Source: Mesorhizobium sp. J428
GTDB lineage: Bacteria > Pseudomonadota > Alphaproteobacteria > Rhizobiales > Rhizobiaceae
Assembly: GCF_024699925.1 (NCBI RefSeq)
Contig: NZ_JAJOMX010000001.1
Location: 1,116,001 to 1,180,000 of the forward strand
Length of the DNA stretch: 64,000 nucleotides
Direction: 5' to 3'
Shown here: piece by piece, positions 2,829 to 58,513 of the stretch
Layout of the letters: each line of letters starts with the position of its first letter
Numbering within the stretch: position 1 is the stretch's first letter
Notes under the pieces: model-generated
The model's input: only the letters and a program-made list of their open reading frames with translations
Databases searched by the model: none
What the model was told of the DNA's origin: nothing
Translations under genes and position numbers: made by a program

Positions 2829-3158
2829 ATGACAAGCAAGACAACGAACAGGTTTTCTCCCGAGGTCCGTGCCCGCGCGGTGCGGCTGGTTCTGGATCAC
2901 GAAGGCGAGCACACCTCGCGGTGGGCGGCGGTGTCGTCGATCGCCGCCAAGATCGGCTGCACGGCGCAGACGTTGCATGAGTGGGTGAAGAAGGCCGAGC
3001 GCGATAGCGGCGTTCGCGCCGGTGTGCCTACGGATGTGGCGACGAAGCTCAAGGCTCTGGAACGCGAGAACCGCGAGCTTCGGCAAGCCAACGAGATCCT
3101 GCGCAAGGCGAGCGCGTATTTTGCCCAGGCGGAGCTCGACCGCCGGTTCAGGCCATGA
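2829..3158 (+). CDS. IS3-family transposase OrfA (helix-turn-helix)
   Basis: A 109-residue OrfA with the N-terminal transposase helix-turn-helix ([18 protein letters not shown], then [13 protein letters not shown]) and a C-terminal leucine-zipper-like coiled coil ([22 protein letters not shown]). It overlaps OrfB by 4 bp. OrfB lies in the -1 frame, as expected for IS3 elements that make an OrfAB fusion by programmed -1 frameshifting. OrfA binds the inverted repeats and usually regulates transposition. Confidence 0.92.
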
Positions 3159-4060
3159 TCGCGTTCATCGACGATCATCGTGGGGCGCATGGGGTCGAGC
3201 CGATCTGCAAGGTGCTGCCGATTGCCCCGTCGACCTACCATGACCGTGTCGCCAAGCGCGTCGATCCCTCCCGGCTGTCGGTTCGGGCAAGACGGGATGC
3301 AGCCTTGAAGGATGAGGTTCGCCGCGTGTTCGAGGCTAACTTCCGCGTCTACGGCGTTCGCAAGGTCTGGCGCCAGTTGCAGCGCGAGGGCTTCGATGTT
3401 GCCCGCTGCACGGTTGCCCGCCTGATGAAGGCCATGGGTCTCGAAGGCATCATCCGCGGCAAGCCGCTCCGCACCACGGTGAGCGACAAGGCCGCACCTT
3501 GTCCGCTCGATCACGTCAATCGCCAGTTCCATGCCCCGGCACCGAACATGCTGTGGGTCTCCGACTTCACCTACGTCGCGACCTGGACCGGCTTCGTCTA
3601 TGTCGCCTTTGTCATCGACACTTATGCGAGAAGGATCGTCGGCTGGCGGGTGAGCCGGACGGCGCATGCGAGCTTCGTCCTGGACGCTCTGGAACAGGCT
3701 CTCCACGATCGGCGGCCAATCCATCGCGGTGGGCTCGTGCACCATAGTGATAGAGGCAGCCAATACGTCAGCATTCGATACACCGAGCGCCTGGCGGAAG
3801 CCGGCGTCGAGCCGTCGGTCGGCAGCGTCGGCGACAGCTATGACAACGCTCTCGCCGAAACCATCAACGGTCTCTACAAGGCCGAGGTGATCCACCGACG
3901 CGGACCATGGCGCTCATTCGAGGCAGTCGAGTTCGCGACGTTGGAATGGGTGGACTGGTTCAACAATCGCCGGCTGCTGGAGCCCATCGGCAACATCCCG
4001 CCGGCGGAAGCCGAGGAACGCTACTACGCCATGCTGGTAGAACCAGCCATGGCCGCGTGA
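3155..4060 (+). CDS. IS3-family transposase OrfB (DDE catalytic domain)
   Basis: A 301-residue catalytic subunit. The integrase-type DDE triad is visible: D in WVSDFTYV, D in HHSDRGSQY, and E in [15 protein letters not shown]. An HTH_21 region ([17 protein letters not shown]) precedes the core. It is full length and shows no internal stop. The start overlaps the OrfA stop, and the functional transposase is probably the OrfAB frameshift product. Confidence 0.93.
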
Positions 4061-40657: not shown

Positions 40658-41544
40658 TCAGTCTCGCCGCGTGCGGCAGAGCACCAGTTCCTGTTCGAGG
40701 GATCGCCCCTGCGCGCCTCCATCGCAGGAGTCCGCGCTGAAATGGGCCAGGAGTTCGGGTTTAACCCCGAAAATCGCGTCACGTCCGATGGCAGGATCCG
40801 ATATGTCGAATATATGCGTCGTCAGTGTCTCGTAGCCTTCGGCGGAGACGCGAAAGTGCAGATGCGCGGGCCGCTCCAGGGTGAGCCCGAGTGTCCTCAT
40901 AAGTCGCCCGACAGGTCCGTCCGAAGGCAGCGCATAGCCGCGTGGCATCACCGTGCGAAACGCGAAGCAGCCGAGCGCATCGGGCACGAAACCTGCCGCG
41001 CAGATTGTTCTCCGGCTGACGGTCCGGTTCCTGGTTCTCGTCACTTCCCGTCGCCATTGGCCTGCCAGACCTCGACCAGCGCGCCGGCGAGCGGCTCTCC
41101 CGAAAGGCCGACCACTCGGCCCGAAACGCTGAGTGGCTCGCCCTTGCCATCACGCGAGATGTTGGCTCCGGCCGGCATTTCCGGCACGTCGGCGCGATAG
41201 AATGGACCAGCGATCGTGTTTGGCGTAGCGCCCGCCGGGCGGCGATGGTTCAGATCCTCGATGTGTGAGGACAGGCCCAGGACATCCGCCAGCAGCACCC
41301 ATTCCTGGCGACGCGAATCGGCATAGTGGCCAACCTCGGTCAGAAAATCGGTCGCGGCATGGAATTCGGATGCGGTGAGGCCCAGTTCGTCGGCGAGGCG
41401 ATTGAGGCTGGCGACCAAGGCACCCACCGTCTCGCTAAGGCGTGACGCAGGGCGTGTCGCAAGACGGGCGGCAAAATCCTCCGAAGCCATCTGGCCCGTC
41501 GCCGAAGTGCCGCCACGATGGAGCCTGTGCTGATTGCCGTCCAT
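40658..41544 (-). pseudogene. Second hydroxyquinol-type intradiol dioxygenase (two frameshifts)
   Basis: The N-terminal dimerisation domain and first half of the Fe(III) domain read through VEVWQANGDGK and then stop. Similarity resumes in a second frame as ENQEPDRQPENNLRGRF, and in a third frame as PDALGCFAFRTVMPRGYA to the stop at 40658. Dropping one base near 41041-41044 and one near 40984-40988 gives a 294-residue protein with all ligands (Y in KYENQ, Y in PRGYALPS, HLH in PAHLHFRV). The start is uncertain: ATG at 41544 or 41490. It heads the long dioxygenase-transporter transcript and is divergent from LysR. As read it cannot make a functional enzyme. Confidence 0.85.
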
Positions 41545-41623
41545 CCTCCCAAGGGCCTCCCAACCCTCGATCTTGGGATAGCATGCGGCTTGGCGGGTTA
41601 GGTTGAGATATTCGGCCAATAGT

Positions 41624-43970: not shown

Positions 43971-44345
43971 GTGACCGACCGAAAGATTCTTATTCCCAAC
44001 CCCGACCATCCCATTTCGATTGTCTCCAATCCGAAGCGGGTGGTGGTTCGAGCTGGTGACATCGTCATAGCCGACACGCGCAATGCGTTGGAGCTGCGCG
44101 AGGCTTCATACCCGCCGGTCCAATATATCCCGCGCAGCGACGTTGACATGGTGCAGTTGACGAAGAGCAGTCACGCGACCTATTGCCCCTACAAAGGGGA
44201 TGCTGGCTATTTCAGCATCGATCGTCTGGGCGAAGCTGGCGCGAACGCTGTCTGGACATATGAGGCGCCCTACCCTGCTGTCGCGGACATTTCGCAGCAT
44301 GTGGCCTTCTATCCGGACAAGGTCTCGATCAGTATCGAACCGTAG
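43971..44345 (+). CDS. DUF427 domain-containing protein
   Basis: A 124-residue single-domain DUF427 protein. Hallmarks are VVVRAGDIVIADTRNALELREA, the THxTYCPxKGDAxYFSI core (here SSHATYCPYKGDAGYFSI) and NAVWTYEAPYPAVADI. It starts with GTG after AAGGGTGACAG. The biochemical role of DUF427 is not established. It is the first gene of a short plus-strand operon with the ornithine-cyclodeaminase homologue and the lyase. Confidence 0.88.
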   Translation: MTDRKILIPNPDHPISIVSNPKRVVVRAGDIVIADTRNALELREASYPPVQYIPRSDVDMVQLTKSSHATYCPYKGDAGYFSIDRLGEAGANAVWTYEAPYPAVADISQHVAFYPDKVSISIEP

Positions 44346-44367
44346 CAGCCAGCATCAGGCCATTCGC

Positions 44368-45372
44368 ATGCAGCCAATCTATCTCACCTATCTGAACCGG
44401 TTCGACATCGAGGCAGCAATGCTAAGCGACGCCGAGATCCTGACGGCAATCGAGGCCAGTCTCGCCATGCAGGGGCGCGGCGAAACGGTGATCGAGCCGC
44501 GCATGCATCTTGAGCCTCGCGCAGGCGTAGAGGGTCATTTCAACGTGCTGCGCGGCTGGATCGGCGGTGAGATCGATGCAGCCGGTGTCAAAGTCGTCGG
44601 CGACTTCGTAGATAATTACAAGCACGGAATGCCGTCGGAATTCGCCGTGCTCAACCTCTTCGATCCGCGCACAGGCAAGCCGACGGCCATTCTCGACGCC
44701 AGCGGCATTACCGACATGCGCACCGGCGCGGTGACCGCCATCGGCGCGAAATATCTGGCTCGCAAAGGTTCCAAGGTTCTCGGCCACATCGGTGCGCGTG
44801 GGACCGCTTACTGGAATGTGCGACTGCTCGATCATCTCTTCGATTTTGATGAGATACGCGTGCATTCGCGCCGGCCGGAAAGCCGCACCGGCTTCGCCGA
44901 GCGGCTGACGCGCGACCTCGGCAAACCTGTGATTGCCACCGACGATTGGCGCTCCTGCGTCGAGGGCGCCGACATTGTCGTCGAGGCGTCGCGGCTCAGC
45001 AAACCGGAGCCGATGCTGAAGACGGAATGGATAAAGCCCGGCGCGCTGGTCGTTCCCTATGGCACCATGAGCGCAGTGGAGCTGTCGCTCACCGACATCA
45101 TGGCGAAACTGGTGGTCGACGATTGGGGCCAGTGCAAGGGTGGCAAGTTCGGCTCGCTGCGCGCCCACGTCGAAGCCGGCAAGCTGTCAGAGCAGACACT
45201 GCACGCCGAACTCGGACAGATCGTTGCCGGGGTGAAGCCTGGACGCCAGAGCGATGAGGAGACAAATCTGTTCTGGCATCGCGGCCTGTCGCTTTCGGAC
45301 ATCGCGCTCGGCCACGCTTTCCTTGCCAAGGCAGAGCAGCTCCGCATCGGGCATCGGTTGCGTTACGCCTGA
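44368..45372 (+). CDS. Ornithine cyclodeaminase/mu-crystallin family protein
   Basis: A 334-residue OCD/mu-crystallin family protein. N-terminal substrate-domain motifs are VIEPRMHLEPR and FNVLRGWIG, with KVVGDFVDNYKHGMPSEFAV and the DASGITDMRTGAVTAIGAKYLARK segment before the Rossmann domain. The nucleotide loop reads HIGARGTAYWNV, where most members have GxGxQA. The family includes ornithine cyclodeaminase, alanine and ketimine dehydrogenases. The substrate is unknown. It lies 23 bp after DUF427, and its stop overlaps the lyase ATG (TGATG), so the two enzymes are tightly coupled. Confidence 0.88.
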   Translation: MQPIYLTYLNRFDIEAAMLSDAEILTAIEASLAMQGRGETVIEPRMHLEPRAGVEGHFNVLRGWIGGEIDAAGVKVVGDFVDNYKHGMPSEFAVLNLFDPRTGKPTAILDASGITDMRTGAVTAIGAKYLARKGSKVLGHIGARGTAYWNVRLLDHLFDFDEIRVHSRRPESRTGFAERLTRDLGKPVIATDDWRSCVEGADIVVEASRLSKPEPMLKTEWIKPGALVVPYGTMSAVELSLTDIMAKLVVDDWGQCKGGKFGSLRAHVEAGKLSEQTLHAELGQIVAGVKPGRQSDEETNLFWHRGLSLSDIALGHAFLAKAEQLRIGHRLRYA

Positions 45373-46901
45373 TGCGCCTCGCGCTTGGCGACCAGCCCGT
45401 AACTATCGCCGACGTCGTCACTGCGTCTGGAGGCGGCGCTGAGGTGACCGCGACGTCAGCCGCGCGCGAGCGAATGGTGCGAGCCCGTCACGTATTGGAC
45501 GACTTCCTTGCGCGCGATATTCCGGTCTATGGCTTGAACACCGGCATGGGTGCGAACATCGGCCACCGTATCGAGCCGGCGCAGGCAGCTAGCATGCAAC
45601 GCGCGCTTATTCTGCCTCGCGCCGCCGCGGTCGGCGAGCCGCTGCCGCTGGAAACATGCCGAGCCGTGCTGTTTTGCCGACTGGCCGGACTGGCGCAAGG
45701 AGGCGCGGGCGTTTCGCTGCCCGTCTTCGACCACCTCTGTGCCATGTTTGCAAAGGATGTCATACCTGCGATCCCGCGCCACGGCTCCATAGGCGCCAGC
45801 GATCTCGTCCAGACAATGCACCTTGCCGCCGCCGCGATCGGCGAAGGCCAAGTTTACTACGACGGCAAGGTTTTAGACGCGCGTTCGGCGCTGGCGAAGG
45901 CCGGACTGGCGATTCCGCAACTCGCTCCGAAGGATGGGCTTTCGGTCGGAAGCGCATCATCGGTAACCGTCGGGGCCGCCGCGCTTGCCGTCGATGCGCT
46001 CGACGGCCTCATCGCAACCCACACCGTTGCCGCCGCGCTGGCCTGCCAGGGATTCGGAGCCAATCCATATCTGTTTGAACACCGGGCGACGGCGGCGCGG
46101 CCGTCGGCCGGGCAGGTGCGGGCCGCCGCCCTTTTCCGCCATGTCCTGGACGGCAGCAACTTCTTCGAACGTGCCCCTCGGAAGGTGCAGGATGCCATCT
46201 CATTTCGCGGGTTGCAGCAGATCACTGGCACCGCGATCGCAGCCATCGACAATGCACGCGATGAGACAGAGGTAGAACTGAACGCCGCTGCCGACAATCC
46301 GCTGGTCTTCGGCGACACAGGCGAGATCATGCCATCCGCGAACTTTCTGACGGTCTCGCTGGCGCTTGCCTTTGACAACCTCGCAATTGCTCTCGCCCAA
46401 CTGGGCACGGCCTCCGCCCAGCGTTCGATCAAGCTGATGACCGGACGGCTGTCCGGTTTGCCGAACTATCTTTCGCCTGTCGGCGGCGCATCCGCCGGAT
46501 TCGTTCCGATGCAGAAGACGATCGGCGCGCTGCAGTCCGAAATCCGCCTGCGCGCGACGCCGGCGAGCCTCGATGCGCTCGTCGTTTCGGATATGGTCGA
46601 AGACATCGGCGCCAACAGCCTGCTCGCTGTCTCGAAGCTGACGGAGCAGATGGAGCCGCTGCGTTGGCTGGTGTCAATCGAAGCCATGCTGGCGGCACAG
46701 GCTGTCGACCTTAGGCGCGGCGGTGGTGAAACCGTGTCGCTGTCTGCCGCCTCGGCCGGACTTTACAAGACCGTGCGCGCGGCGACGCCTGTTCTCGAAG
46801 CCGATCGCGCGACTGGTCCCGATGTGCAGGCGGTGCATCGTCAGCTGTGGTCGCGATCCAGCGTGGCCGCGATGCGCGCCATCGCCTATGGCCGCAGCTG
46901 A
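45372..46901 (+). CDS. Histidine/aromatic ammonia-lyase fold enzyme lacking the MIO triad
   Basis: A 509-residue member of the HAL/PAL family over its whole length: VYGLNTGMGANIG around Tyr53, then RHGSIGASDL, and ending VRAATPVLEADRATGPD. In classical enzymes Ala-Ser-Gly cyclises to the MIO electrophile. Here residues 142-144 are Ala-Ser-Asp, with the glycine missing from GASGDL. The INGT asparagine region reads SVGSAS, and the usual QDxYSxR tyrosine is isoleucine (QDAISFR). A normal MIO-dependent ammonia elimination is therefore unlikely. MIO-less relatives that expel trimethylamine from betaines (ergothionase type) are a possible parallel. It is coupled to the OCD gene and overlaps the end of the convergent hydratase gene by 16 bp. 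Confidence 0.85.
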   Translation: MRLALGDQPVTIADVVTASGGGAEVTATSAARERMVRARHVLDDFLARDIPVYGLNTGMGANIGHRIEPAQAASMQRALILPRAAAVGEPLPLETCRAVLFCRLAGLAQGGAGVSLPVFDHLCAMFAKDVIPAIPRHGSIGASDLVQTMHLAAAAIGEGQVYYDGKVLDARSALAKAGLAIPQLAPKDGLSVGSASSVTVGAAALAVDALDGLIATHTVAAALACQGFGANPYLFEHRATAARPSAGQVRAAALFRHVLDGSNFFERAPRKVQDAISFRGLQQITGTAIAAIDNARDETEVELNAAADNPLVFGDTGEIMPSANFLTVSLALAFDNLAIALAQLGTASAQRSIKLMTGRLSGLPNYLSPVGGASAGFVPMQKTIGALQSEIRLRATPASLDALVVSDMVEDIGANSLLAVSKLTEQMEPLRWLVSIEAMLAAQAVDLRRGGGETVSLSAASAGLYKTVRAATPVLEADRATGPDVQAVHRQLWSRSSVAAMRAIAYGRS

Positions 46902-47641
46902 AGCACGACGTCGCCAAAGGGCGTGATCTCAACCCTGATCACGCCAGGAGAGGTGATGGCCCGGCCCGGCAGATGCGCGCCTGTCAGAACCACCATTCCC
47001 GGCTCCAGGGCTTTGCCATCGCGAGCCAATGCGCTCACCAGCCAGTTCAGCGCCTCAAGCGGCTGCTGCGGGGCGGCGTTCCGCGCCTCGCCCGCAACCG
47101 TACCGTCTATGGACAGGCGTACGGCAGTGTCGGCGCTCGCGACGAATGGGACAGGGGTTCCCAACACCGCCCCCTCACTGTGAATGCGTTGCGCGACGGC
47201 CGCCGCCGCGCTCGGATCGTGGGCAAACGCGCCTCGTGCATCCATGATCTCGATCGCTGGCAACGCCTCGACGGCGTGCTCCAGATCCTTGACGCTGGTT
47301 GCCGTTTCAACTGGCGCGATGAGGCGCAGGGCGATCTCGGGCTCGATCACCAGATCGACAAATCCCGCCAGAGCCAACTCTGCGCCTGAGGCGTGAACCT
47401 GATCGGAAAAGAGAGGCGCATAGCATGACTCGCTCAGGCCATAATAATCCATCGAAGACCGGCGGTTGAAGGCGATCTTGTAGCCCACGATGCGCCGGCC
47501 CGGAGCGCCCTTGATCAGTTTGTCATTGACCTCCCGCTGCACTTCATAGGCGTGCGTCAGCCCTTTGATCTCGTCCTCACGCGGCGCGAAGGGCCGCAAG
47601 CCGACTATGTCGTCGACTATCCGCCGTGCCAGATCGCTCAT
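46886..47641 (-). CDS. 2-oxopent-4-enoate hydratase/fumarylacetoacetase-related protein (MhpD-like)
   Basis: A 251-residue member of the 2-keto-4-pentenoate hydratase/4-oxalocrotonate decarboxylase family. Visible are GYKIAFNRR, the metal-binding VDLVIEPEIALRL, EIMDARGAF, and the C-terminal GMVVLTGAHLPGRAITSPG. The family hydrates or decarboxylates 2-oxo-dienoates with Mg. Its ATG overlaps the upstream monooxygenase stop (ATGA), and it is the last gene of the importer operon. Confidence 0.85.
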   Translation of the reverse strand: MSDLARRIVDDIVGLRPFAPREDEIKGLTHAYEVQREVNDKLIKGAPGRRIVGYKIAFNRRSSMDYYGLSESCYAPLFSDQVHASGAELALAGFVDLVIEPEIALRLIAPVETATSVKDLEHAVEALPAIEIMDARGAFAHDPSAAAAVAQRIHSEGAVLGTPVPFVASADTAVRLSIDGTVAGEARNAAPQQPLEALNWLVSALARDGKALEPGMVVLTGAHLPGRAITSPGVIRVEITPFGDVVLQLRP

Positions 47642-48900
47642 GCCGGCGCGATTCCCAGATTGGCGCGCAGGGTCGCGCCTTCGTATGCGGTGCGAAACAG
47701 CCCGCGCCGCTGCAGTTCGGGAATGACCCGGTCGACGAAACTGGTCAACTCGCCAGGAAAATAGGCGGCCAGCACATTGAAGCCGTCGCACCCGCCGCCA
47801 AGGAACCAGGCTTCCATCTCGTCGGCGACGTCGCTCGCTGTTCCGACAAGTCGCCAATGGCCGCGCGCGCCGGCAAAATGCTGCGCCACCTGCCGGATGC
47901 TCAGGCCATCGCGACGCGACTGGTCTATGACCAGCTGCTGGCGGCTCTGCATTCCCTCGCCGACCTTGATGTCCGGCAGCGGCCCATCCAGCGGCAAGCC
48001 GTCGAGCGCATTGGTCGAGAGATAACTTGCAAGCAGCGCCAGCCCGACCTCGTCGGGGATCAATGCCTGCAACTCGTCGAATTTCTCCTGCGCCTCGGCG
48101 CGAGTTTCACCGACCACAGGCGAGACGCCGGGCAGTATCTTGATGGCTTCGGGACGGCGCCCCGCTCGCTCGGTCCGCGCCTTCACATCGTCATAGAACG
48201 ACTTGGCGTCCTTCAGCGTCTGCGTCGCGACGAACACGACGTCCGCCGTGCGCGCGGCAAGATCGCGCCCCACATCGGACGAACCCGCCTGCACCATGAC
48301 GGGCGCGCCTTGGGGCGATGCAGGAATTCCGAGGCCCTGCCGCACGGCGAAATTCTCACCCTGATGCTCCACCACCCCGAACCGTGAAGACGGCTCCCAG
48401 AGGCGGCTGACGACTTCGGCAAATTCTTTGGCGCGAACATAGCGGTCGCCATGGGCGCGCAGGCCTTGGGCGCCGAAATTCGCCGCCTCGATCTCGCTTG
48501 CAGAGGTCACCAGGTTCCAGCCGGCGCGACCGTCGCTGACGAGGTCCAGCGTGGCGAAGGCACGCGCCAAGGCATAGGGTTCGTTGTAGGATGTCGACGC
48601 TGTCGCCACCAGACCAATCGTGTGCGTGTTGGCGGCCAGCGCCGCCAGCAGGCTGATTGGCTCGAAACCGATCGACCGCGACGTCTGAGCCGCCAATTCC
48701 ACCCGCGCCTCGCGTACGCCGGCGGCGTCTTCGAAGAAGATCAGATCGAAAAGTCCTCGCTCGGCAATCTGGGCAAGTTCGATCATATGTCCGACATTGA
48801 CGCCCGCATCGGCGACGGCGTTTGGATGCCGCCACGCCGCGATGTGGTGACCGGTGGGCATCAGGAATGCACCGAGTTTCATCTGCCCGGCCATCGTCAT
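47638..48900 (-). CDS. NtaA/SnaA/DszA-family FMN-dependent monooxygenase
   Basis: A 420-residue luciferase-like monooxygenase of the NtaA/SnaA/DszA/SoxA group. Visible are LGAFLMPTGHHIAAWRHP, the active-site segment LIFFEDAAG, TASTSYNEPYALARAFATLD, DGRAGWNLVTSA and GLRAHGDRYVRAKEF. Members use FMNH2 and O2 to cleave C-N or C-S bonds. The ATG overlaps the stop of the shorter homologue upstream (ATGA). No flavin reductase is encoded in this operon. Confidence 0.9.
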   Translation of the reverse strand: MTMAGQMKLGAFLMPTGHHIAAWRHPNAVADAGVNVGHMIELAQIAERGLFDLIFFEDAAGVREARVELAAQTSRSIGFEPISLLAALAANTHTIGLVATASTSYNEPYALARAFATLDLVSDGRAGWNLVTSASEIEAANFGAQGLRAHGDRYVRAKEFAEVVSRLWEPSSRFGVVEHQGENFAVRQGLGIPASPQGAPVMVQAGSSDVGRDLAARTADVVFVATQTLKDAKSFYDDVKARTERAGRRPEAIKILPGVSPVVGETRAEAQEKFDELQALIPDEVGLALLASYLSTNALDGLPLDGPLPDIKVGEGMQSRQQLVIDQSRRDGLSIRQVAQHFAGARGHWRLVGTASDVADEMEAWFLGGGCDGFNVLAAYFPGELTSFVDRVIPELQRRGLFRTAYEGATLRANLGIAPA

Positions 48901-49550
48901 GCCTCTCCCAGCAACGCCAATACCGCACGGACGCTGGCGACGGGTACCGCGTCGGCGAGATCGCTCGCATGGAGCAAGGCCGGCACGCCTGTAGGCGCGC
49001 GCATCACGTTCAGCGGACCTTTCACCGAGAAGTGTGCGCCATTGTGGCTGAGCAGGTGCATGGCCTCGTGCTTGAAGAACTGCCCAGCGGCTTTGTCGAG
49101 CGTCAACGCATCCGCGTCCCAGCTTTGCCAGAGGCCGCGCACGATGGCTTCGAACTCCTCTTCACGCTCGCCGAGGTCCTGGCCTGCCAGCCGAAACGCG
49201 CCGCTGAAAGCGGCTATGGCGTCCTCGACCTGCCCCTCTTCCACCGCCCAGCCGGCACGGCCACCGCTGATCAGATCTAGCGACGCCAACCGCCGAGCCA
49301 GATTGTAGGGCTGGTGTCCGAGGCTCGAGACTCTGCCAATCAGGCGAATGCGATGGGTCGCCGGCGCCAGCCAGCCGATCAGGATCAGCGCATCCGGCCA
49401 GGCTTCGCCGCCGCCGGCCGGAGCTATGACATCAGGCAGGACGATTGCTTCGACGCCCATCTCATCGGCGCGACGCGCAACGTCCCGCAGACCATCCAGG
49501 CTCCAATCGGAGAAGGGTCCGGTGATGGCGATAGATCGAGGAAAAGTCAT
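48897..49550 (-). CDS. Short luciferase-like monooxygenase family protein
   Basis: A 217-residue protein resembling the luciferase-like monooxygenase core (RRADEMGVEAIVLPDV, RIRLIGRVSSLGHQPYNLAR, LDLISGGRAGWAVEEG). It is about half the size of NtaA-type enzymes: strands and helices after the middle of the barrel are missing, and it ends in a clean ATGA overlap with the next gene. It may be a natural partner or an inactive paralogue of the longer enzyme. One base separates it from the ATPase gene. Confidence 0.78.
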   Translation of the reverse strand: MTFPRSIAITGPFSDWSLDGLRDVARRADEMGVEAIVLPDVIAPAGGGEAWPDALILIGWLAPATHRIRLIGRVSSLGHQPYNLARRLASLDLISGGRAGWAVEEGQVEDAIAAFSGAFRLAGQDLGEREEEFEAIVRGLWQSWDADALTLDKAAGQFFKHEAMHLLSHNGAHFSVKGPLNVMRAPTGVPALLHASDLADAVPVASVRAVLALLGEA

Positions 49551-49551
49551 T

Positions 49552-50481
49552 TCAGAAAGCCAGAATGGCTTCGCGTTTGATCGTTCCGATCACCGCTCCG
49601 GATTCGTTCGTCACCACGGCGGCGTCACTCTTGGCGGCCACGATGGTCGAGAGCGCGTCGCGCAGGTCGGCGTCATGGGCGATGCGGGGCAGCGACGACG
49701 ACGCCTCTCCAGGCACCATGATCTCGCTGACCGCAAACAGGCTGAGACGCTTCAGTGCCCTGTCCGCACCGACGAAATCTTCTACGAAGCCGTCGATTGG
49801 CCGGGAGAGAATTGTCTCCGGCGTATCATACTGGACGATCTTGCCGTCGCGCATGATGGCGATGCGGTCGCCAAGCCGCACTGCCTCGTCAATGTCGTGC
49901 GTCACCATGACGACGGTCTTTTTCACGCGCTTGAGGATTTGCTTGAATTCGTTCTGCAGCCGTGTGCGGGCGATCGGATCGATGGCGCCGAAGGGTTCGT
50001 CCATGAGAAGGACCGGCGGGTCGGCCGCGAGGGCACGCGCGACGCCGACGCGTTGGCGCTGCCCGCCCGACAGCTGTCGCGGATAGCGTGTCAACATCGA
50101 TGCGTCGAGACCGACAAGAGCCATCAACTCACGATTCCGGCTGTCGATTTTCGCGCGTTCCCAGCCGAGCAGGCGGGGAACCGAAGCAAGATTCTCCCAG
50201 ATCGTCATATGAGGGAACAAGCCGACCTGCTGGATGACATAGCCGATGTGGCGGCGCAGCTGCACCGGATCCGCTGCGCGCACATCCTGACCGCTGACGG
50301 TGATTTCGCCGCTGGTCGGCTCGATCAGGCGGTTGATCATGCGCATCGTCGTCGTCTTGCCGCAGCCTGAAGGACCGACCAGCGCCACCGTCACGCCGTC
50401 GGGCACTTCGAGGTCCAGATTGTCAACCGCCGGCGTGCCGCCCTCGCCGAAGCGTTTTGTAACGCTCTTCATCGTGATCAT
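49552..50481 (-). CDS. Quaternary-amine ABC transporter ATPase, OpuCA/ProV-like
   Basis: A 309-residue ATPase with Walker A GPSGCGKTT, Q-loop YVIQQVGLFPH, signature LSGGQRQRVGVARAL, Walker B VLLMDEPFGAIDP and H-loop MVTHDIDEA. A C-terminal CBS-type region (about residues 250-309, including IAHDADLRDALSTIV) is typical of osmoprotectant and glycine-betaine importers. The ATG overlaps the permease stop (ATGA). Confidence 0.92.
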   Translation of the reverse strand: MITMKSVTKRFGEGGTPAVDNLDLEVPDGVTVALVGPSGCGKTTTMRMINRLIEPTSGEITVSGQDVRAADPVQLRRHIGYVIQQVGLFPHMTIWENLASVPRLLGWERAKIDSRNRELMALVGLDASMLTRYPRQLSGGQRQRVGVARALAADPPVLLMDEPFGAIDPIARTRLQNEFKQILKRVKKTVVMVTHDIDEAVRLGDRIAIMRDGKIVQYDTPETILSRPIDGFVEDFVGADRALKRLSLFAVSEIMVPGEASSSLPRIAHDADLRDALSTIVAAKSDAAVVTNESGAVIGTIKREAILAF

Positions 50482-51125
50482 GCGGCGCGTCTTTCTCCGA
50501 ACAGCCAGCGCTCGGTGAGGCCGAGGGAGAACTCGGCCCCGAGCGCCAGCAACGCTATCGGCACGGCGCCCACCAGCAACCGTGACTGATCCATGCCGGC
50601 CACGCCGACGGCGATAAAGTCTCCAAGGCCGCCACCGCCGATGAAGGGCGCCAGCGTCGCGCCCGCCAGCACCTGCACTGTGGCAGTGCGCAAACCGGCA
50701 AACATCGCCGGCGCGGCGAGCGGAATGCGGATCTTGCGCAGGATCTGCCCGTTGCTCATGCCCATGCCGGTGGCAGCTTCGACAGCGTCCTGGTCGACAT
50801 CGCGCAGGCCGATATAGGCATTGATGAGGATTGGCGGCAGCGCCAGAATGGTCAGCGCCACGATCGAGGGCCACAACCCGATGCCGAGAAGCGGCATCAT
50901 GATCGCGAGGATGGCAAGGCTGGGCAGTGTGCGCAGGCCGTTGACGACATTGATCGCCGCCGCAGCCAGACCGCCGTGTCTGAGGATCACCACCGCAAGG
51001 GGCAATCCGATCGCCAGCGCGAAGGCCAGTGCGGCAAAGGACATGATCAGGTGCTGGCGCAGCGCCTGGTTGAAGTCACCGGGATTGGCGACGATCCAAT
51101 TGAAAGCCTCCGCCAGCAGGTTCAC
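50478..51125 (-). CDS. Quaternary-amine ABC permease, OpuCB/YehY-like
   Basis: A 215-residue permease with the OpuC/Yeh-type core GLRTLPSLAILAIM, LPPILINAYIGLRDVDQDAVEAATGMG and ATLAPFIGGGGLGDFI. It starts at GTG 51125 after GGAGGCAGGC, and that codon overlaps the upstream permease stop (GTGA). One of two permeases in a heterodimeric channel. Confidence 0.9.
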   Translation of the reverse strand: MNLLAEAFNWIVANPGDFNQALRQHLIMSFAALAFALAIGLPLAVVILRHGGLAAAAINVVNGLRTLPSLAILAIMMPLLGIGLWPSIVALTILALPPILINAYIGLRDVDQDAVEAATGMGMSNGQILRKIRIPLAAPAMFAGLRTATVQVLAGATLAPFIGGGGLGDFIAVGVAGMDQSRLLVGAVPIALLALGAEFSLGLTERWLFGERRAA

Positions 51126-51745
51126 GCCTGCCTCCAGCGCTGCAGCCGCCGCTCGAGCCAGGTCATCACCGTGTCGAAGAAGATGGCGATCAGCGCCGTA
51201 AGGCCGCCGCCGACGATGATCTTCTCGGGGAAGTTCTGGTCGATGCCGGCCAGGATGATCGATCCGAGCCCGCCTGCATCGATGAAGGCCGCGATCGTCG
51301 CAATGCCGATGACGGTGACCAGCGCGATCCTGACGCCCGAGACGATCAGCGGCAGGGCAAGCGGCAGTTCCACGCGGATCAGCCGCTGCCAACGACTGAA
51401 CCCCATTCCGTCGGCTGCATCGAGCAGTTCGTCGGGCACATTGCGCAATCCGGTGACGACGTTTCGCAACAGGATGAGCACGCAGTACGACGAAAGGCCG
51501 GTGATTGCAGGCTTCATTCCCAGTCCCATGACCGGGATCAGGAAGGCAAAAAGCGCCAGGCTGGGGATCACGAAGATGATCCCCGCCACGGTCAGGAAGA
51601 AGGCGTAGAGCCTCGGGCGCCGCGCCGAGATGATCCCGAGGATCAACGCGACGATGCCGCCAATGAGCACCGACAGGAAGGACAGCACCAGGTGCTGTCC
51701 GGCGGCATCAAGGATCAGACCAAGGTTCTTGGGCGCCCAGATCAC
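51122..51745 (-). CDS. Quaternary-amine ABC permease, OpuCD-like (second)
   Basis: A 207-residue permease with VIPSLALFAFLIPVMGLG, ILLRNVVTGLRNVPDELLDAADGMGFSR and FIDAGGLGSIILAGID. It starts with GTG at 51745, 19 bp after the restored stop of the binding protein, preceded by GGAAAG. Pairs with the previous permease. Confidence 0.9.
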   Translation of the reverse strand: MIWAPKNLGLILDAAGQHLVLSFLSVLIGGIVALILGIISARRPRLYAFFLTVAGIIFVIPSLALFAFLIPVMGLGMKPAITGLSSYCVLILLRNVVTGLRNVPDELLDAADGMGFSRWQRLIRVELPLALPLIVSGVRIALVTVIGIATIAAFIDAGGLGSIILAGIDQNFPEKIIVGGGLTALIAIFFDTVMTWLERRLQRWRQA

Positions 51746-51764
51746 GCGGGTCTTTCCAGGCCGG

Positions 51765-52645
51765 TCAGATACCCTCGGCCTTCAGGAACTCAGCCGCAAC
51801 CTCTGCCGGCTCCTTGCGGTCGCGCTCGACGGCCGCGTTCATGGTTCGCATCTTTTCGTTGGTGAGCAACGGCGCCAGCTTGTCGAGAACCTCGGCGATC
51901 TTCGGGTTGGCCTTCAGCGCATCCTGGCGCACGACGGGCACCAGATAATAGGGGGGAACAAACCCTTATCATCCTCCAGCACGGCGAGCTTGTTGTCCTC
52001 GATCTGCCAATCGGTTGCGAACCCGAACGAGACGTCGATCTGTTTGCTGGTCAAGGCGCTGTAGCGAATGCCAAGCTTCGCGAACTTCACGAACTCCTTG
52101 AACTTGATGCCGTACACCTTTTCCAGACCCGGCAAGCCGTCCTTGCGCTCGCCGAACGTGCCTTCGGCGCCAAAAGTCAGATCCTTCGAGACCGGGCCGA
52201 GATCCGTCAGCGTCTTCAGTTTGAACTCGGCGGCGCGGTCGGGAAGCATGATGATCGCATAGCCGTTGTTGATCGCGGTCGGCTTCAGCAGCGTCAGTTG
52301 AAGCTGGTCTTCATAGTGCTTTTTCACGTCGGTGTAGATCTGGTCCGGGTCGCTCGTCAGCTCTCCCTTCACCACGGCTGCAAGCGCGGTCCCGGTATAT
52401 TCCGGATAAAGGTCGATCTCGCCGCTGGTCAGCGCCGTGTGGGCGATCTGGGTGGCGCCGAGATTGAGACGCTTCTGGACTTCGATTCCGGCCTTTTCCA
52501 ACGCCTGGGCGTAAATCTCGGCGACGATGAACTGTTCGGTGAAGTTCTTGCTGCCGATTTTGACCGGCTCTGCGTGCGCGGCCAGAACTGAGGTGACAGC
52601 CGCCAAGCCGCTGATCGCAATGGACTTGAATAGGCGGGAAATCAT
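51765..52645 (-). pseudogene. Quaternary-amine substrate-binding protein, OpuCC/ProX-like (frameshifted)
   Basis: A signal peptide (MISRLFKSIAISGLAAVTSV, cleavage near HAEPV) precedes an OpuCC/YehZ-type domain: VKIGSKNFTEQFIVAEI, TSGEIDLYPEYTGTAL and SFGFATDWQIEDNKLAVLEDD. At the GGGGGG run 51951-51956 the frame shifts. Adding one base makes the protein continue LFPPYYLVPVVRQDALKANP to FLKAEGI at 51765, giving 293 residues of normal length. Binding proteins of this group hold glycine betaine, choline, carnitine or, in some bacteria, ergothioneine. It is the first gene of the import/oxidation operon. Confidence 0.87.
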
Positions 52646-53189: not shown

Positions 53190-54058
53190 TCAGCCCTCGC
53201 GCTTGTAGCTGCCGTGACCGGGCTGGTAGGTCTTCTCATCGAGAAACTGCGACAGGCCCTTGGCGCGGCCGCGCTCCGGGTCGACGAAGGTCGTCTGGTC
53301 GGCCTTGGCGGTGAGATATTCCGCCGATTCCTCCCAGGTCATTTCGCGAACGGCTTGTAAGCCATCCGCGCCTGGCGCAGCACTGTCGGGTTCTTCGCCA
53401 GCAGGACCCTGCAGAGCTCCACCGTGCGCTGGCGCAACCGGTCGGCGGGCACCGACTCGTTGACCAGGCCGAGCTGCTCCGCGACCTTGCCGCCGAACTG
53501 CTCGCCGGTCATCACGTAGTAGAGCGCCTTGCGGTCGTTCATCAGCGTCGAGATCGCCTTGGACACGACGCCGCCGGGGATGACGCCCCAGTTTATCTCC
53601 GACAGGCCGAACACGGCATCGTCGGACGCGATCGCCAGGTCGCAGCAGATCAGCGGCGTGAAGGCGCCGCCGAAGCACCAGCCGTTGACCATGGCGATGG
53701 TGGGCTTTGAATAGTGCATCAGCGTGCGCCACTGCCAGGCGCGGGTGGAGCGGTAGGCGCGCATCCGTTCGATGTCGCTGACGCCGTCGGTGGCGCGGAA
53801 AAAGTCCTTCAGATCCATGCCGGCGGAAAACGCCTCACCCATGCCGGTGAGCACGATGACGCCGCAGCGGTCGTCGATTTCGAGCGCATCGAGGACCCTG
53901 TTCATCTCCTCCGCGAGGCCGACGCTCATCGCGTTGCGCTTTTCCGGGCGGTTGAGCTTCACCCAGGCGATGCCCTCCTCGAACTCGACGAGCACGTCCT
54001 TACCCCACGGTTCGGGGCGGGTTTTGGCGGTCTTGTCCTGGGTCATCGAGGTGCTCAC
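53190..54058 (-). pseudogene. Feruloyl-CoA hydratase/lyase-like crotonase, FerB type (frameshifted)
   Basis: A crotonase with the hydroxycinnamoyl-CoA hydratase/lyase signature: GIAWVKLNRPEKRNAMS, the oxyanion loop AFSAGMDLKDFFR, MVNGWCFGGAFTPL and FGLSEINWGVIPGG. The frame breaks near 53352-53355 after LRQARMAYK. The normal C-terminus (AVREMTWEESAEYLTAK... to GSYKREG) lies in the next frame and ends at 53190. Adding one G restores 289 residues. The GTG at 54058 overlaps the ALDH stop (GTGA); an ATG at 54046 is the alternative. It converts feruloyl- or coumaroyl-CoA to the benzaldehyde plus acetyl-CoA. Confidence 0.87.
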
Positions 54059-55500
54059 GTCTGGCTGACAAACTTGGTGGTGAGATAGGCGTCCATGCCC
54101 TCGGTGCCGCCTTCGCTGCCGTAGCCGCTCTGCTTCACGCCGCCGAATGGCGTCTCGGGCATGTTGATGAAATTGTTGTTGAGGCCGACCATACCGGCCT
54201 CCAGCGCGTCCGCCACCATCGCCGCCGTCTTCGACGAGGTCGTGAAGGCATAGGAGGCGAGGCCGAAGGGCAGACGGTTGGCCTGCTCGATCACCTCGTC
54301 GAACGAGGAGAACGGCGAAGTGATCGCCATCGGCCCGAACGGCTCCTCGTTCATCGCGGCCGCCTCGACCGGCACGTTGGCGAGAACCGTCGGCTGGAAG
54401 AAGTAGCCGCGGTTGGCGCCGCGCTCCCCGCCGGCGACAAGCGTCGCGCCATGCCCGACAGCATCCGCCACGAGCCGCTCCATCGCCGCGATGCGGCGCG
54501 GATTGGCGAGCGGGCCCATTGCGGTGGAAGGGTCGAGCCCATCTCCGACCGTGATCGCCTTTACCGCATTCGCAAAACCGTCGACGAAGCGGTCGTGCAG
54601 GCTGTCGTGCACGTAGAACCGTGTCGGCGAAACGCAGACCTGGCCGGCATTGCGATATTTCGCGGCGACCATCGAGCGCACCGCGTGATCGAGATCGGCA
54701 TCCTCGAACACGAGCACCGGCGCATGCCCGCCGAGCTCCATCGTGGCGCGCTTGACGCCGGCCTCGGCCGCCAGCTTCGCCAGATGCTGCCCGACGACGG
54801 TCGAGCCGGTGAAGGTGATCTTGCGGATCGCCGGATGCGCGATCAGCTGCTCCGACACTGCGGAGGGAACGCCGTAGACGACGTTGAGCACGCCCTTCGG
54901 CAGGCCGGCATCATCGAGCGCCTGCGCCAGCTCGAGCACAGAAGCGGGAGTCTCCTCGGAGGGCTTGATCACCATCGTGCAGCCCACCGCCAGCGCCGCC
55001 GAGATCTTGCGCGCGGGGATCACGATCGGGATGTTCCAGGGCGTGAAGGCGGCGACCGGGCCGACCGGCTCTTTGGTCACCAGCCAGCGGGCGCCGGGCA
55101 TGCGCGACGGCACGATGCGGCCATAGGTGCGCCGGCCCTCGTCGGCCGTCCAGTCGAAGATGTCGGCGGCGGCGAGCACCTCCTGCCGCGCCTCCAGCAT
55201 CGGCTTGCCCTGCTCCAGCACGACCCGCGTGGCGATGTGCTCGACACGCTCGCGCAGCAGGTCCGCCGCCTTGCGGACAATTTTCGCACGATCGTAGGCT
55301 GGAAGGACCTTCCACGACTTGAACGTCCGTCCGGCAGCCAAGGCCGCCGCGTCGACGTCGTCGCCGCTGGCATGCGGCAGGGAAGCGATGGCGTCCCCGG
55401 TCGCCGGATTGATCACGTCCTCGGTGACGCGGTCGCCGGCATCGAGCCATTGTCCGTCGACAAAGAGCTGAAGCGTTCCGTACCGGGCATCCTGGGCCAT
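54055..55500 (-). CDS. Aldehyde dehydrogenase (vanillin/aromatic aldehyde or semialdehyde type)
   Basis: A 481-residue NAD(P)-dependent aldehyde dehydrogenase. Visible are FTPWNIPIVIPARKISAAL, the catalytic glutamate in MELGGHAPV, the catalytic cysteine in RNAGQVCVSPTRFYV, and NNNFINMPETPFGGVKQSGYG near the end. General homology is to succinate-semialdehyde and vanillin dehydrogenases. Its place between a feruloyl-CoA lyase and a CoA ligase makes oxidation of the released aromatic aldehyde the most likely role. Confidence 0.9.
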   Translation of the reverse strand: MAQDARYGTLQLFVDGQWLDAGDRVTEDVINPATGDAIASLPHASGDDVDAAALAAGRTFKSWKVLPAYDRAKIVRKAADLLRERVEHIATRVVLEQGKPMLEARQEVLAAADIFDWTADEGRRTYGRIVPSRMPGARWLVTKEPVGPVAAFTPWNIPIVIPARKISAALAVGCTMVIKPSEETPASVLELAQALDDAGLPKGVLNVVYGVPSAVSEQLIAHPAIRKITFTGSTVVGQHLAKLAAEAGVKRATMELGGHAPVLVFEDADLDHAVRSMVAAKYRNAGQVCVSPTRFYVHDSLHDRFVDGFANAVKAITVGDGLDPSTAMGPLANPRRIAAMERLVADAVGHGATLVAGGERGANRGYFFQPTVLANVPVEAAAMNEEPFGPMAITSPFSSFDEVIEQANRLPFGLASYAFTTSSKTAAMVADALEAGMVGLNNNFINMPETPFGGVKQSGYGSEGGTEGMDAYLTTKFVSQT

Positions 55501-55530
55501 GATCCCTCCCGTGCGGCAAAAGTCGCCGCG

Positions 55531-57663
55531 TCAGTCCTTCACGAACAGCGCATCGAGCGCGACTGCGCCCTCGGCGCCGACCATCAGCGGATTGATGTCG
55601 ACCTCAGCGATCGACGGGTCCGCCAGCATCAGCCGGCCGAGCTTCACCACGACGTCCGCAATCGCGCCGACGTCTCGCGCCGGCTGCCCGCGGAACGGCC
55701 CCAGCAGCGACGCCGCCTTGAGCTTGCCGAGTTCGGCGATGACGCGCTCACGGGTCGTCGTCGCCGGCAGCAGCCGGGCATCCTTCAGCGCCTCGATCCA
55801 GACGCCGCCGAGGCCGACCAGCACGACCGGCCCCCATTGCGCGTCGCGGCGGGCGCCGACCACCATCTCGAGGCCGGGCTTCGCCATCTCCTCGACCAGC
55901 ACGCCGTCCAGCACGAGGCCGGGTCTGGCCGCCGAGACGCTGCCGTGCAGCCGGTCCCACGCCGCGCGAAGTGCTGCCTCGTCGGCGATGTTGACGATGA
56001 CGCCACCGACGTCGCTCTTATGTGCGAGCGCGACAGCCTGCGCCTTGATGACGACGGGATAGCCGATGCGTGCGGCGGCGGCGATGGCTTCCTCGATGCT
56101 CGTCGCCATCTCGCCGCGCGGCACGGCGATGCCGAGATCGGCCAGCACGCGCTTGCCGGCATATTCTGGAACGACTCCGGAACCTGCGACCCTCGTCCGC
56201 ACAGGCGGGACCGTTTTCTGCTCGCTGACCGCGGCCCGCGCGTCGGCATATGCCGAGACCGCCGCCATCGCGCGCAGCGCTCGTTCCGGCGAACGGAAGA
56301 AGGGAATGCCGCTCGCGCGCACATCCGCCATGAAGCGCTCGTCGAGCGGATAGTCGTCGCCGACGATGTTGAGGATCACCGGCTTCGTCGCCGAGGCATA
56401 GACCGGGATGATCGCGTCGGACTTGGCGATCTGCATCTTCGGCGAGCCGCCGGCATAGGACAGGAGCGCCATGCCGACGTCCGGCTGCTTCAGCAGCACC
56501 GCGGCCGAGGTGCCGTAGATGGCGGGATTGGCGAAGCCGACCGTGCCGATGTCGAACGGGTTGTCGACGTGGACATAGGGCGGCACCAGCGTCTGCATCT
56601 CCGCCTCGATCTCGGGCGACAGGGTCGCCAGTTCGAGCCCGATGCGCTCGCAGAAGTCGAAGCAGAGGCCGCGGATGGCACCGGAATTCGTCACCACGCC
56701 GGCCTTGCCCGGCTTCGGCGTCGGGAAGCGCGACAGGATGGCGAGCACGTCGAACAGCTCGTCCGTCGTGTCCACCAGCGCGATGGCCTCGTTGCGCAGG
56801 ATGGTCTCCATCACCGCATGGTCGCCGGCGAGCGCGCCGGTGTGCGACTGGGCGGCGGCCCGGCCGCGGGCGCTGGAGCCGGGATGCAGCAGGACGATCG
56901 GGATGCCCTTCTCGCGCGCCCGCCGGGCCGCTGCGAGGAACAGGCCCGGATTGCGGATCTGCTCGACATAGACGCCGATCGCGGTGTTCTGGGGATCGCG
57001 GATCATCACGTCGATGAAGCGCTCCGCGCCCAGCGTCGCCTCGTTGCCGGTGGCGATGACGAGCGAGGTCTCAATGCCGCGCGCGTGCATGGCGAAGCGG
57101 ATGTTGGCGGCCGTCGCGCCGCTCTGCGCCACCACGGCGACGCGGCGTCCCGCGGCCGCAGGCTGCCGGACGTCGACCGGCTCGAAGGTGAGCGGGATGC
57201 CGGCGGAATAGTTCGTGTAGCCCATGCAGTTCGGGCCGAGCAGCGCGATGCCGTTGTCGGTGCACAGCCGCGCCAGCTCGTCCTGCTGCAGCCGGCCCTC
57301 GTCTCCCGCCTCCGCGAAGCCGGACGCGAACACGATCACCGCGCCGATGCCGCGCTCCGCGCAGGCGCGCACCGAGTCGAGGATCGCGCCCTGCGGCACG
57401 ATCAGCACCGCGACGTCGATGCCCTTCGGCAGGTCGCCGATCGCTTTGACGCAGGGCCGGCCGCGGATCTCGTCCTTCGAGCGGCTAACGAGGTGGATCC
57501 GGCCGGAATAGCCGAAGGCCTCGAGATTGGCGAGAACGCCGCCGCCGATCGAGGTCGGTTCCGGCTGCGCGCCGACGATCGCGACCGAGCGCGGCGTCAG
57601 CAGCCGGTCGAGGTCGATCGCCGCGTCGGACGAGACCGGCCGCGCGGCCTCAGCCACGATCAT
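55531..57663 (-). CDS. NDP-forming acyl-CoA synthetase, FerA-like (feruloyl-CoA synthetase)
   Basis: A 710-residue ADP-forming acyl-CoA synthetase with fused subunits. A CoA-binding domain (LLTPRSVAIVGAQPEPTSIG) leads a succinyl-CoA-ligase-like core with the phosphohistidine at about His274 in AAQSHTGALAGDHAV, then an ATP-grasp domain from about residue 500 (AVPRGEMATSIEEAIAAA, GYPVVIKAQAVALAHKSDVG, and EVDINPLMV). Sphingomonad FerA, a feruloyl-CoA synthetase, has this architecture rather than the AMP-forming one. Flanking FerB-like lyases support hydroxycinnamate activation. The ATG lies 14 bp inside the end of the second FerB gene. Confidence 0.88.
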   Translation of the reverse strand: MIVAEAARPVSSDAAIDLDRLLTPRSVAIVGAQPEPTSIGGGVLANLEAFGYSGRIHLVSRSKDEIRGRPCVKAIGDLPKGIDVAVLIVPQGAILDSVRACAERGIGAVIVFASGFAEAGDEGRLQQDELARLCTDNGIALLGPNCMGYTNYSAGIPLTFEPVDVRQPAAAGRRVAVVAQSGATAANIRFAMHARGIETSLVIATGNEATLGAERFIDVMIRDPQNTAIGVYVEQIRNPGLFLAAARRAREKGIPIVLLHPGSSARGRAAAQSHTGALAGDHAVMETILRNEAIALVDTTDELFDVLAILSRFPTPKPGKAGVVTNSGAIRGLCFDFCERIGLELATLSPEIEAEMQTLVPPYVHVDNPFDIGTVGFANPAIYGTSAAVLLKQPDVGMALLSYAGGSPKMQIAKSDAIIPVYASATKPVILNIVGDDYPLDERFMADVRASGIPFFRSPERALRAMAAVSAYADARAAVSEQKTVPPVRTRVAGSGVVPEYAGKRVLADLGIAVPRGEMATSIEEAIAAAARIGYPVVIKAQAVALAHKSDVGGVIVNIADEAALRAAWDRLHGSVSAARPGLVLDGVLVEEMAKPGLEMVVGARRDAQWGPVVLVGLGGVWIEALKDARLLPATTTRERVIAELGKLKAASLLGPFRGQPARDVGAIADVVVKLGRLMLADPSIAEVDINPLMVGAEGAVALDALFVKD

Positions 57664-58513
57664 AGGTTTCGAGCCCGGGCTTGAACGACTTGTCGTCGAG
57701 GAATTGCTTCATCCCCGTGTTGCGGCCGTTCTCGGGATCGCGGAACTCGGTCTGGTCCGACTTCGCCATCAGATAGTCGCCGGCCTGATCCCAGGTCAGA
57801 TCCTTGACGAAACGCGCCGCCGTCTTGGCCTGGCGCAGCACGTAGGGGTTCTTGTCCATCAGCGTCCTGGCCAGTTCGCGCGTCTTGTCCTTCAGTTCGG
57901 TCGCCGGAACCGCCTTATTCACGAGCTTCATGTCGGCCGCCTGGCGGCCGGTGAAGGTCTCTCCGGTCATGATGTAATACATCGCGTCGCGAAAGCTCAT
58001 CACCTCGACCACCGCCTTGGTGACGATGCCCGCCGGGATGATGCCCCAGTTGATCTCGGACAGGCCGAACACGGCGTCCTCGGAGGCAACGGCGAGGTCC
58101 GAGCCGATCAGGAACTGGAACGCGCCGCCGAAGCACCAGCCGTTGACCATCGAAATCGTCGGCTTCGGATACTGCATCATGCGGCGCCACTGCCACGCGG
58201 CATTGGCGCGGAACAGGCGCTCGCGCTCGATCGGCGGCACCTTGTCGGTGGCACGGAAATACTCCTTCAGGTCCATGCCGGCCGAGAAGGATTCGCCCGC
58301 GCCGGTCACCACCATCACCTTGCAGCGGTCGTCGGCTTCCAGCGCGTCCATGATCGCGTTCATCTCCCAGACGATGCCGGGATTGATCGCGTTGCGCCGC
58401 GCCGGGCGGTTGAGCGTCACCCACGCGATGCCGTCTTCGAACTCGACGGTGACGTTCTCGCCCCATGCCCCATTCTGTTTCGGGGCACTGGAAGCGGCTT
58501 CGGCGGTTTGCAT
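57650..58513 (-). CDS. Feruloyl-CoA hydratase/lyase-like crotonase, FerB2 type
   Basis: A 287-residue intact paralogue of the frameshifted gene at 53190. Visible are GIAWVTLNRPARRNAINPG, the oxyanion region SFSAGMDLKEYFR, MVNGWCFGGAFQFLIGSD, FGLSEINWGIIPAG and the C-terminal DQTEFRDPENGRNTGMKQFLDDKSFKP-type end. It follows the family of p-hydroxycinnamoyl-CoA hydratase/lyases closely. Because the other copy is frameshifted in this sequence, this one may carry the activity. ATG at 58513 with a GGAG site. Confidence 0.9.
   Translation of the reverse strand: MQTAEAASSAPKQNGAWGENVTVEFEDGIAWVTLNRPARRNAINPGIVWEMNAIMDALEADDRCKVMVVTGAGESFSAGMDLKEYFRATDKVPPIERERLFRANAAWQWRRMMQYPKPTISMVNGWCFGGAFQFLIGSDLAVASEDAVFGLSEINWGIIPAGIVTKAVVEVMSFRDAMYYIMTGETFTGRQAADMKLVNKAVPATELKDKTRELARTLMDKNPYVLRQAKTAARFVKDLTWDQAGDYLMAKSDQTEFRDPENGRNTGMKQFLDDKSFKPGLETYDRG

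Follow-up and report, generated by a model that had tools for sequence, protein, structure and literature searches.

An MIO-less lyase with an ornithine-cyclodeaminase-family partner in Mesorhizobium sp. J428: a candidate module for catabolism of a histidine-derived betaine

Introduction

What does an enzyme of the histidine ammonia-lyase (HAL) fold do when it cannot form the cofactor 4-methylideneimidazole-5-one (MIO), is encoded together with an ornithine-cyclodeaminase-family protein (OCD), and faces an operon for an OpuC-type ATP-binding cassette (ABC) importer? The question is raised by positions 43971-52645 of a 64,000-nucleotide stretch of Mesorhizobium sp. J428 (contig NZ_JAJOMX010000001.1, positions 1,116,001 to 1,180,000), here called the window and numbered from its first base. 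Its host genome, of 5.88 Mb, is G000 below; other genomes and loci carry G and L numbers. A sequence-only reading had proposed that the locus imports an aromatic or amino-acid betaine, expels the amine with the lyase and oxidises the unsaturated acid that is left, and the genes that it named are all present where it placed them. Our own answer, to which we give a probability of about 0.5, is that the genes form a module for the breakdown of a histidine-derived betaine, in which the importer supplies the MIO-less lyase and the lyase supplies the histidine utilization (Hut) pathway. The module most likely acts like ergothionase, outside the ergothionase clade and pathway.

To our knowledge, MIO-less lyases of the HAL fold are known through ergothionase only, and window-type lyases are often labelled histidine ammonia-lyase in public records. 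Ergothionase is without MIO according to PMC13405746.

Results

The lyase (45372-46901, + strand) matches PF00221 at 407 bits and belongs to the Lyase_aromatic fold, and its 345.7 bits against the hutH model do not pass the curated cut-off of 539.15. It aligns with HutH overall and shares its fold, and differs from it in having lost MIO and Tyr280. Where HAL has G-A-S-G-D it has G-A-S-D, one residue fewer, and the MIO-forming Ala-Ser-Gly is absent. The same residue is missing from all of the best 120 of 1122 homologues and all of the best 120 of 1879 ergothionase relatives; a frameshift or assembly slip as its source is ruled out by the first of these counts. At the HAL Asn195 position the lyase has Ser, and at that of Tyr280, a catalytic residue in the HAL family, it has Ile (Leu, Ile or Val in the 120 best-listed relatives), as had been read from the INGT asparagine and the QDxYS tyrosine. 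Retained are Tyr53, Lys386, Glu414 and Arg283 (HAL numbering), residues with catalytic roles in ergothionase. We predicted a structure for the lyase alone, as a monomer, and ran Foldseek and VIA on that model; the predicted fold is of the HAL type, and the closest solved structure is ergothionase of Treponema denticola (6s7j/6s7q), which likewise has no MIO residue and has lost Tyr280. The description of an MIO-less, ergothionase-like lyase is supported.

The pocket differs from that of T. denticola ergothionase, to which the lyase is ~30% identical. Position 83 is Arg in the window lyase and in 118 of its 120 best-listed relatives, and His in HAL and in all 120 best-listed relatives of the ergothionase; ergothionase Arg57 and Glu142 are replaced by Thr and Ala. 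In a quick tree of chosen rows, supported by the Shimodaira-Hasegawa-like approximate likelihood ratio test (SH-aLRT) only, with no bootstrap, the window lyase falls in a sister branch (62 rows, SH-aLRT 97) to the ergothionase side (15 rows, SH-aLRT 95), which includes L024, a lyase from a cluster of the known ergothioneine pathway, Ert. Two lyases of the window clade, L178 and L179 (tree labels L135 and L136), retain His83, so the Arg83 switch is imperfect. In a search of 41 genomes (its own and close relatives) 24 match, the others all being at most 40% identical. We conclude that there is a second, broad clade of MIO-less HAL-fold lyases, with an altered pocket (Arg83) and a conserved partner of its own. 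On the ergothionase side, an MIO-less lyase of S. meliloti 1021 (L163, pSymA 170038-171612, where the record's table carries no features) has Ala in place of the otherwise retained Lys386.

That partner is OCD (44368-45372, + strand; PF02423, 188.4 bits), whose stop codon overlaps the lyase ATG by one base (TGATG). We compared 80 named loci, the best 80 of 185 encoded relatives and many of them Mesorhizobium; 54 have full 10-kb flanks. OCD is at least 60% identical in 68 of them. In 63 it is immediately next to the lyase and on its strand, before it in 56 and after it in 7, which bears out the pairing seen in the window. Among 397 genomes of the order (thresholds E ≤ 1e-75 for the lyase, E ≤ 1e-90 for OCD), 24 have the lyase, 26 have OCD and 19 have both (Fisher p 2e-22, relatedness ignored). 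The nucleotide motif GxGxxA and the Asp of the GADGPGK segment have functional roles in the OCD family. In at least 97% of 65 copies, compared with archaeal alanine dehydrogenase, Arg replaces the second Gly of the former and Met the usual Asp of the latter, so the chemistry of this OCD may be unusual. In relatives, OCD often has a PhnD-like protein as a further neighbour; the window has none. The OCD-lyase module is conserved, and we found neither a name for it nor a description of it in the open-access literature, most subscription papers being outside that search.

Genes of the Hut type stand beside Arg83 lyases in four lineages, namely Rhizobium, Martelella, a Sulfitobacter metagenome-assembled genome and G271. 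In the Sulfitobacter genome (L072), HutU, OCD and an Arg83 lyase follow one another with overlapping ends; this HutU, a partial gene at a contig end, scores 551 against the urocanate hydratase cut-off of 375 and 379 against the thiourocanate hydratase cut-off of 930. HutC lies beside or overlaps the Arg83 lyase in Rhizobium (L167, L200), in a near-identical locus of two genomes (L175, L176) and in Martelella (L193); in L192 the neighbour is HutG. OCD also accompanies ergothionase-type (His83) lyases: in Paracoccus saliphilus the two lie within a complete hut cluster, and in Paraburkholderia (L196) HutU and HutC are nearby. The complete HutU of L196 scores 966.7 as urocanate hydratase and 687.8 as thiourocanate hydratase. 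Only 1 of 28 GntR-type matches in G000 passes the HutC cut-off, so it is not commonplace to find HutC as a neighbour.

Leaving aside an ordinary hut operon with HutH in Priestia (L173), 17 of 18 distinct plasmid-record regions were counted, and 7 have a Hut gene (L167, L170, L193, L196, L198, L199, L200); of the 7, L167 and L200 belong to a single lineage, no lyase is in reach of the OCD gene of L198, and the gene counted in L199 is the lyase itself, an MIO-containing HutH. The corresponding figure for genome stretches is 3 of 18 (L175, L176, L192). G000 has its own HutU, MIO-bearing HAL gene and HutC at 2.64 Mb. The window's lack of a urocanase-type enzyme had been read as a sign against imidazole chemistry; that argument is not supported, given the HutU, HutC or HutG of some relatives and the host's own Hut genes.

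Neighbours of the methylamine type include MTTB (L188, L041, L056), GbcA-like Rieske proteins (L048, L055, L057; below the GbcA cut-off where scored) and FAO-GcvT proteins (L041, L056, L059, L062). Putative sulfate exporters of the YeiH family (PF03601) are nearby in L036, L043, L048, L164, L167, L170, L175, L176 and L200, where 'exporter' is annotation only and the L043 copy is above the Pfam and below the TIGR00698 cut-off; bifunctional sulfate-activation genes are beside OCD in L188 and L192. The host itself is rich in genes of the methylated-amine type. Four intact MTTB-family genes and two broken pieces were seen in G000, along with 12 matches to a trimethylamine N-oxide demethylase model, none of them above cut-off and nearly all confined to its GcvT part. 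A PanB-like gene is near OCD-lyase in 31 of the 80 loci (L067-L112, mostly Mesorhizobium), alongside a Rieske ferredoxin in 29 and a desaturase-like gene in 33. These Mesorhizobium neighbours may represent a rhizopine region, but in Rhodobacteraceae M382 (L195) OCD-lyase is again accompanied by a PanB-like gene (34-38% identical), here with a different desaturase.

A betaine of a non-histidine aromatic amino acid (tyrosine, 3,4-dihydroxyphenylalanine or tryptophan) is the first alternative. Arg83 would then bind the distal group of the ring, and the product, of the cinnamate type, would pass to hydroxycinnamate genes at 53339-58513 (- strand), where two p-hydroxycinnamoyl-CoA hydratase/lyase genes (413.4 and 339.8 bits, cut-off 276) adjoin, in one cluster with an aldehyde dehydrogenase and an ADP-forming-type acyl-CoA synthetase. 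The Arg83 lyases of R. leguminosarum and R. johnstonii also adjoin CoA-transferase, SDR and MaoC-type genes. However, tblastn with the window genes did not find the hydroxycinnamate set beside the Aquibium or Pseudaminobacter copies of the module, and we dropped it as part of the system because it was not found beside the closest named relatives. With HutC, HutU or HutG beside Arg83 lyases in four lineages as well, we regard this alternative as unlikely. An aromatic betaine in general, as first proposed, is less likely than one of the histidine type.

The second alternative is a plain ergothionase, which would convert ergothioneine to thiourocanate and trimethylamine by the Ert route. We searched with NCBIfam models for four Ert enzymes: thiourocanate hydratase, thiohydantoin desulfurase, ErtD and ErtE. 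All four are adjacent to a His83 lyase in P. denitrificans, with thiourocanate hydratase at 1045.7 against 930. Ergothionase is the closest solved relative of the window lyase, the Ert cluster of Proteobacteria too has an MIO-less lyase, and 3 of 10 Ert stretches have OpuC-type transport genes (L217, L221, L222). Against this, the window block has no Ert enzyme, and Ert lyases are of the His83 type where read: a lyase is in reach in 5 of the 10 stretches, and all 5 have His83. The two systems can even share a genome, since in G305, G409 and G420 (drafts of one genus) the Ert cluster comes with a separate His83 lyase, and an Arg83 lyase lies on another contig. Thiourocanate hydratase is above cut-off in 28 of the 397 genomes and in 4 of the 24 with the lyase (p 0.08, genome relatedness ignored); in G000 none is above cut-off, the one match (686.6 against 930) being at the HutU position. 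Given the separate His83 lyases and the lack of a hydratase above cut-off, we reject the idea that the window lyase serves a known Ert cluster as its ergothionase. The lyase also sits in the sister clade, off the ergothionase side, and we find a plain ergothionase improbable; the suggestion that the substrate lies beyond the known ergothioneine route is supported.

The importer set of the OpuC/ProU type is complete in one operon on the - strand, with an OpuAC-type binding protein (51914-52645; PF04069, 161 bits), two permeases (51122-51745 and 50478-51134; PF00528, kept together with the block) and an ATPase (49552-50481; proV-type, 322.2 bits, just below the cut-off of 326.6). Aquibium, Pseudaminobacter, Mesorhizobium zhangyense, Phyllobacterium, Rhizobium and Sinorhizobium all keep the OCD-lyase, importer and luciferase-like monooxygenase (LLM) genes together as a single block, which supports the link between the pair and these genes; plasmid annotations of Rhizobium sp. 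CC-CFT758, R. acidisoli and Sinorhizobium sp. B11 show this block. When the pair was sought beside an OpuC-type importer elsewhere, the importer was conserved in 9 of the 80 named loci (ATPase 69-80% identical there). Other importers also occur with the pair, peptide-type ABC genes in Bosea and Prosthecomicrobium and a tripartite-type binding protein in Polaromonas.

The binding-protein frame is broken near its end in the window assembly, with the tail at 51765-51941 in another frame; orthologues are whole in Aquibium, Pseudaminobacter, Mesorhizobium zhangyense and Phyllobacterium. By eye, a ring-cleaving-dioxygenase-like gene (40658-41619, - strand) is seemingly divided between two frames, and the hydratase/lyase gene at 53339-54058 seemingly shortened, with the rest in another frame. 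Three seemingly frame-broken genes in ~13 kb suggest assembly consensus errors, and assembly noise is a likely cause of the binding-protein break, which may alternatively be a true lesion. Among solved structures, the intact binding protein best matches acetylcholine and nicotine sensors (191-194 bits), which derive from OpuBC, and the next include ProX (149 bits) and EgtUC (147 bits). The orthologues of the operon retain the aromatic cage and the carboxylate-holding lysine and arginine (roles according to PMC9732360), a likeness to the EgtU importer, whose binding protein is of the same family; judged by these residues, a carboxylated quaternary amine is the likely substrate.

Downstream of the ATPase gene are LLM2 (48897-49550, - strand), LLM1 (47638-48900, - strand) and an MhpD/HpaH-like gene (46886-47641, - strand) that overlaps the lyase tail to tail. 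LLM1 is a flavin mononucleotide (FMN)-dependent monooxygenase of the NtaA/DmoA family (TIGR03860, 480.8 bits, cut-off 279.7), and 11 of the 80 named loci have a copy with at least 55% identity. LLM2, its short partner of 217 aa, is below the same cut-off at 134.8 bits, and the short form is stable (219 aa in Aquibium, 216 aa in Pseudaminobacter; 290-360 aa in other genera). The earlier account of importer and monooxygenases thus holds for the genes present, with two corrections, the broken binding-protein frame and the shortness of LLM2. The best solved match of LLM1 is 7e36 chain B (354.9 bits), and chain A is the second-best of LLM2 (112.1 bits, behind 3sdo with 120.8). That structure is NtfO1-NtfO2, a luciferase-like heterodimer also of two unequal subunits, which differs in being a biosynthetic hydroxylase according to PMC8027225.

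These genes bring in the last alternative, in which the leaving group is a secondary or tertiary amine of N-substituted amino acids and the NtaA-type LLM pair strips N-substituents; LLM1 is indeed above the NtaA/DmoA cut-off and related to nitrilotriacetate and ethylenediaminetetraacetate monooxygenases, and the importer is a peptide/opine-type ABC system in Bosea and others, but the cage residues of the binding protein and the MTTB, GbcA-like and FAO-GcvT neighbours leave it a slim chance.

The remaining genes are accessory. The MhpD-like hydratase of the earlier account is present as a gene; its identity rests on weak matches (no Pfam hit, and 59 bits against NCBIfam HpaH with a cut-off of 351.5), so we speak of a hydratase-fold protein, at least 40% identical in 2 of the 80 loci (L033, L035). 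A DUF427 protein (43971-44345, + strand; PF04248, 107 bits) precedes OCD; DUF427 genes recur in related operons (L068/L074/L080, L165), with 56% identity in L185. Elsewhere in the window, two short neighbouring open reading frames at 2880-4060 (+ strand) resemble, by eye, an IS3-type transposase pair.

Discussion

Several observations weigh against a module for a histidine-derived betaine. The change of His83 to Arg makes plain imidazole recognition not obvious. The pair is not obligatory: the lyase is alone in 5 and OCD alone in 7 of the 397 genomes, and among the 18 genome stretches the lyase is without OCD in 7 and OCD without the lyase in 5. A Rhodococcus qingshengii plasmid (L199) pairs OCD with an MIO-containing HutH (673.7 against the cut-off of 539.15), with a PhnD-like protein beside both, so the role of OCD is not confined to MIO-less lyases. 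When the 80 named loci were queried with HutC, HutF, HutI, HutG and HutU, L072 alone showed a Hut gene nearby, and the window itself has none. The desaturase neighbours, mostly in Mesorhizobium, point to no imidazole chemistry. Finally, Gly244 and Glu375 are ergothioneine determinants among the EgtU binding residues according to PMC9732360, and window-type binding proteins lack both: nine intact orthologues have Phe at the Gly244 position and Thr (3) or Gly (6) at that of Glu375. Binding of ergothioneine in the EgtU mode is thus not indicated by these residues.

A histidine-derived betaine nevertheless remains the reading that we favour, with hercynine, S-oxidised ergothioneine or a relative as candidate substrates. 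The OpuC-type ABC importer would take up an acid whose alpha-amine is quaternary and whose side chain is of the imidazole type. With an active site built from the retained Tyr53, Lys386, Glu414 and Arg283, the lyase would then take the beta-proton and expel a tertiary amine, which for a trimethyl betaine would be trimethylamine; since quaternary amines leave readily, the reaction could proceed without MIO. The product would be urocanate, or a ring-modified urocanate that is converted to urocanate, and would enter the Hut pathway. OCD, joined in the window subtype by the two FMN monooxygenases, would handle the feature that sets the substrate apart from plain hercynine, which is most likely a substituent at imidazole C2.

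One version of this scheme, which we put forward tentatively and think rather unlikely in its particulars, is a second, oxidative route of ergothioneine breakdown that starts from S-oxidised ergothioneine (imidazole-2-sulfinic or -sulfonic acid betaine). The anionic C2 group would pair with Arg83 while the MIO-less lyase releases trimethylamine, and the C2 sulfur would be lost as sulfite, through the LLM pair or through hydride addition to C2=N by OCD, to give urocanate for the Hut pathway. Such a route would explain the neighbouring genes for ordinary HutU, for YeiH-family proteins and, beside OCD, for sulfate activation.

If the favoured reading is true, the module would give soil and root bacteria a further supply of amine and urocanate. 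It offers a testable hypothesis for uncharacterised OpuC-type importers, such as that of plasmid pRL12 of R. johnstonii 3841, and it brings into view a subfamily of OCD proteins in which the cofactor motif is altered and whose function is open to testing.

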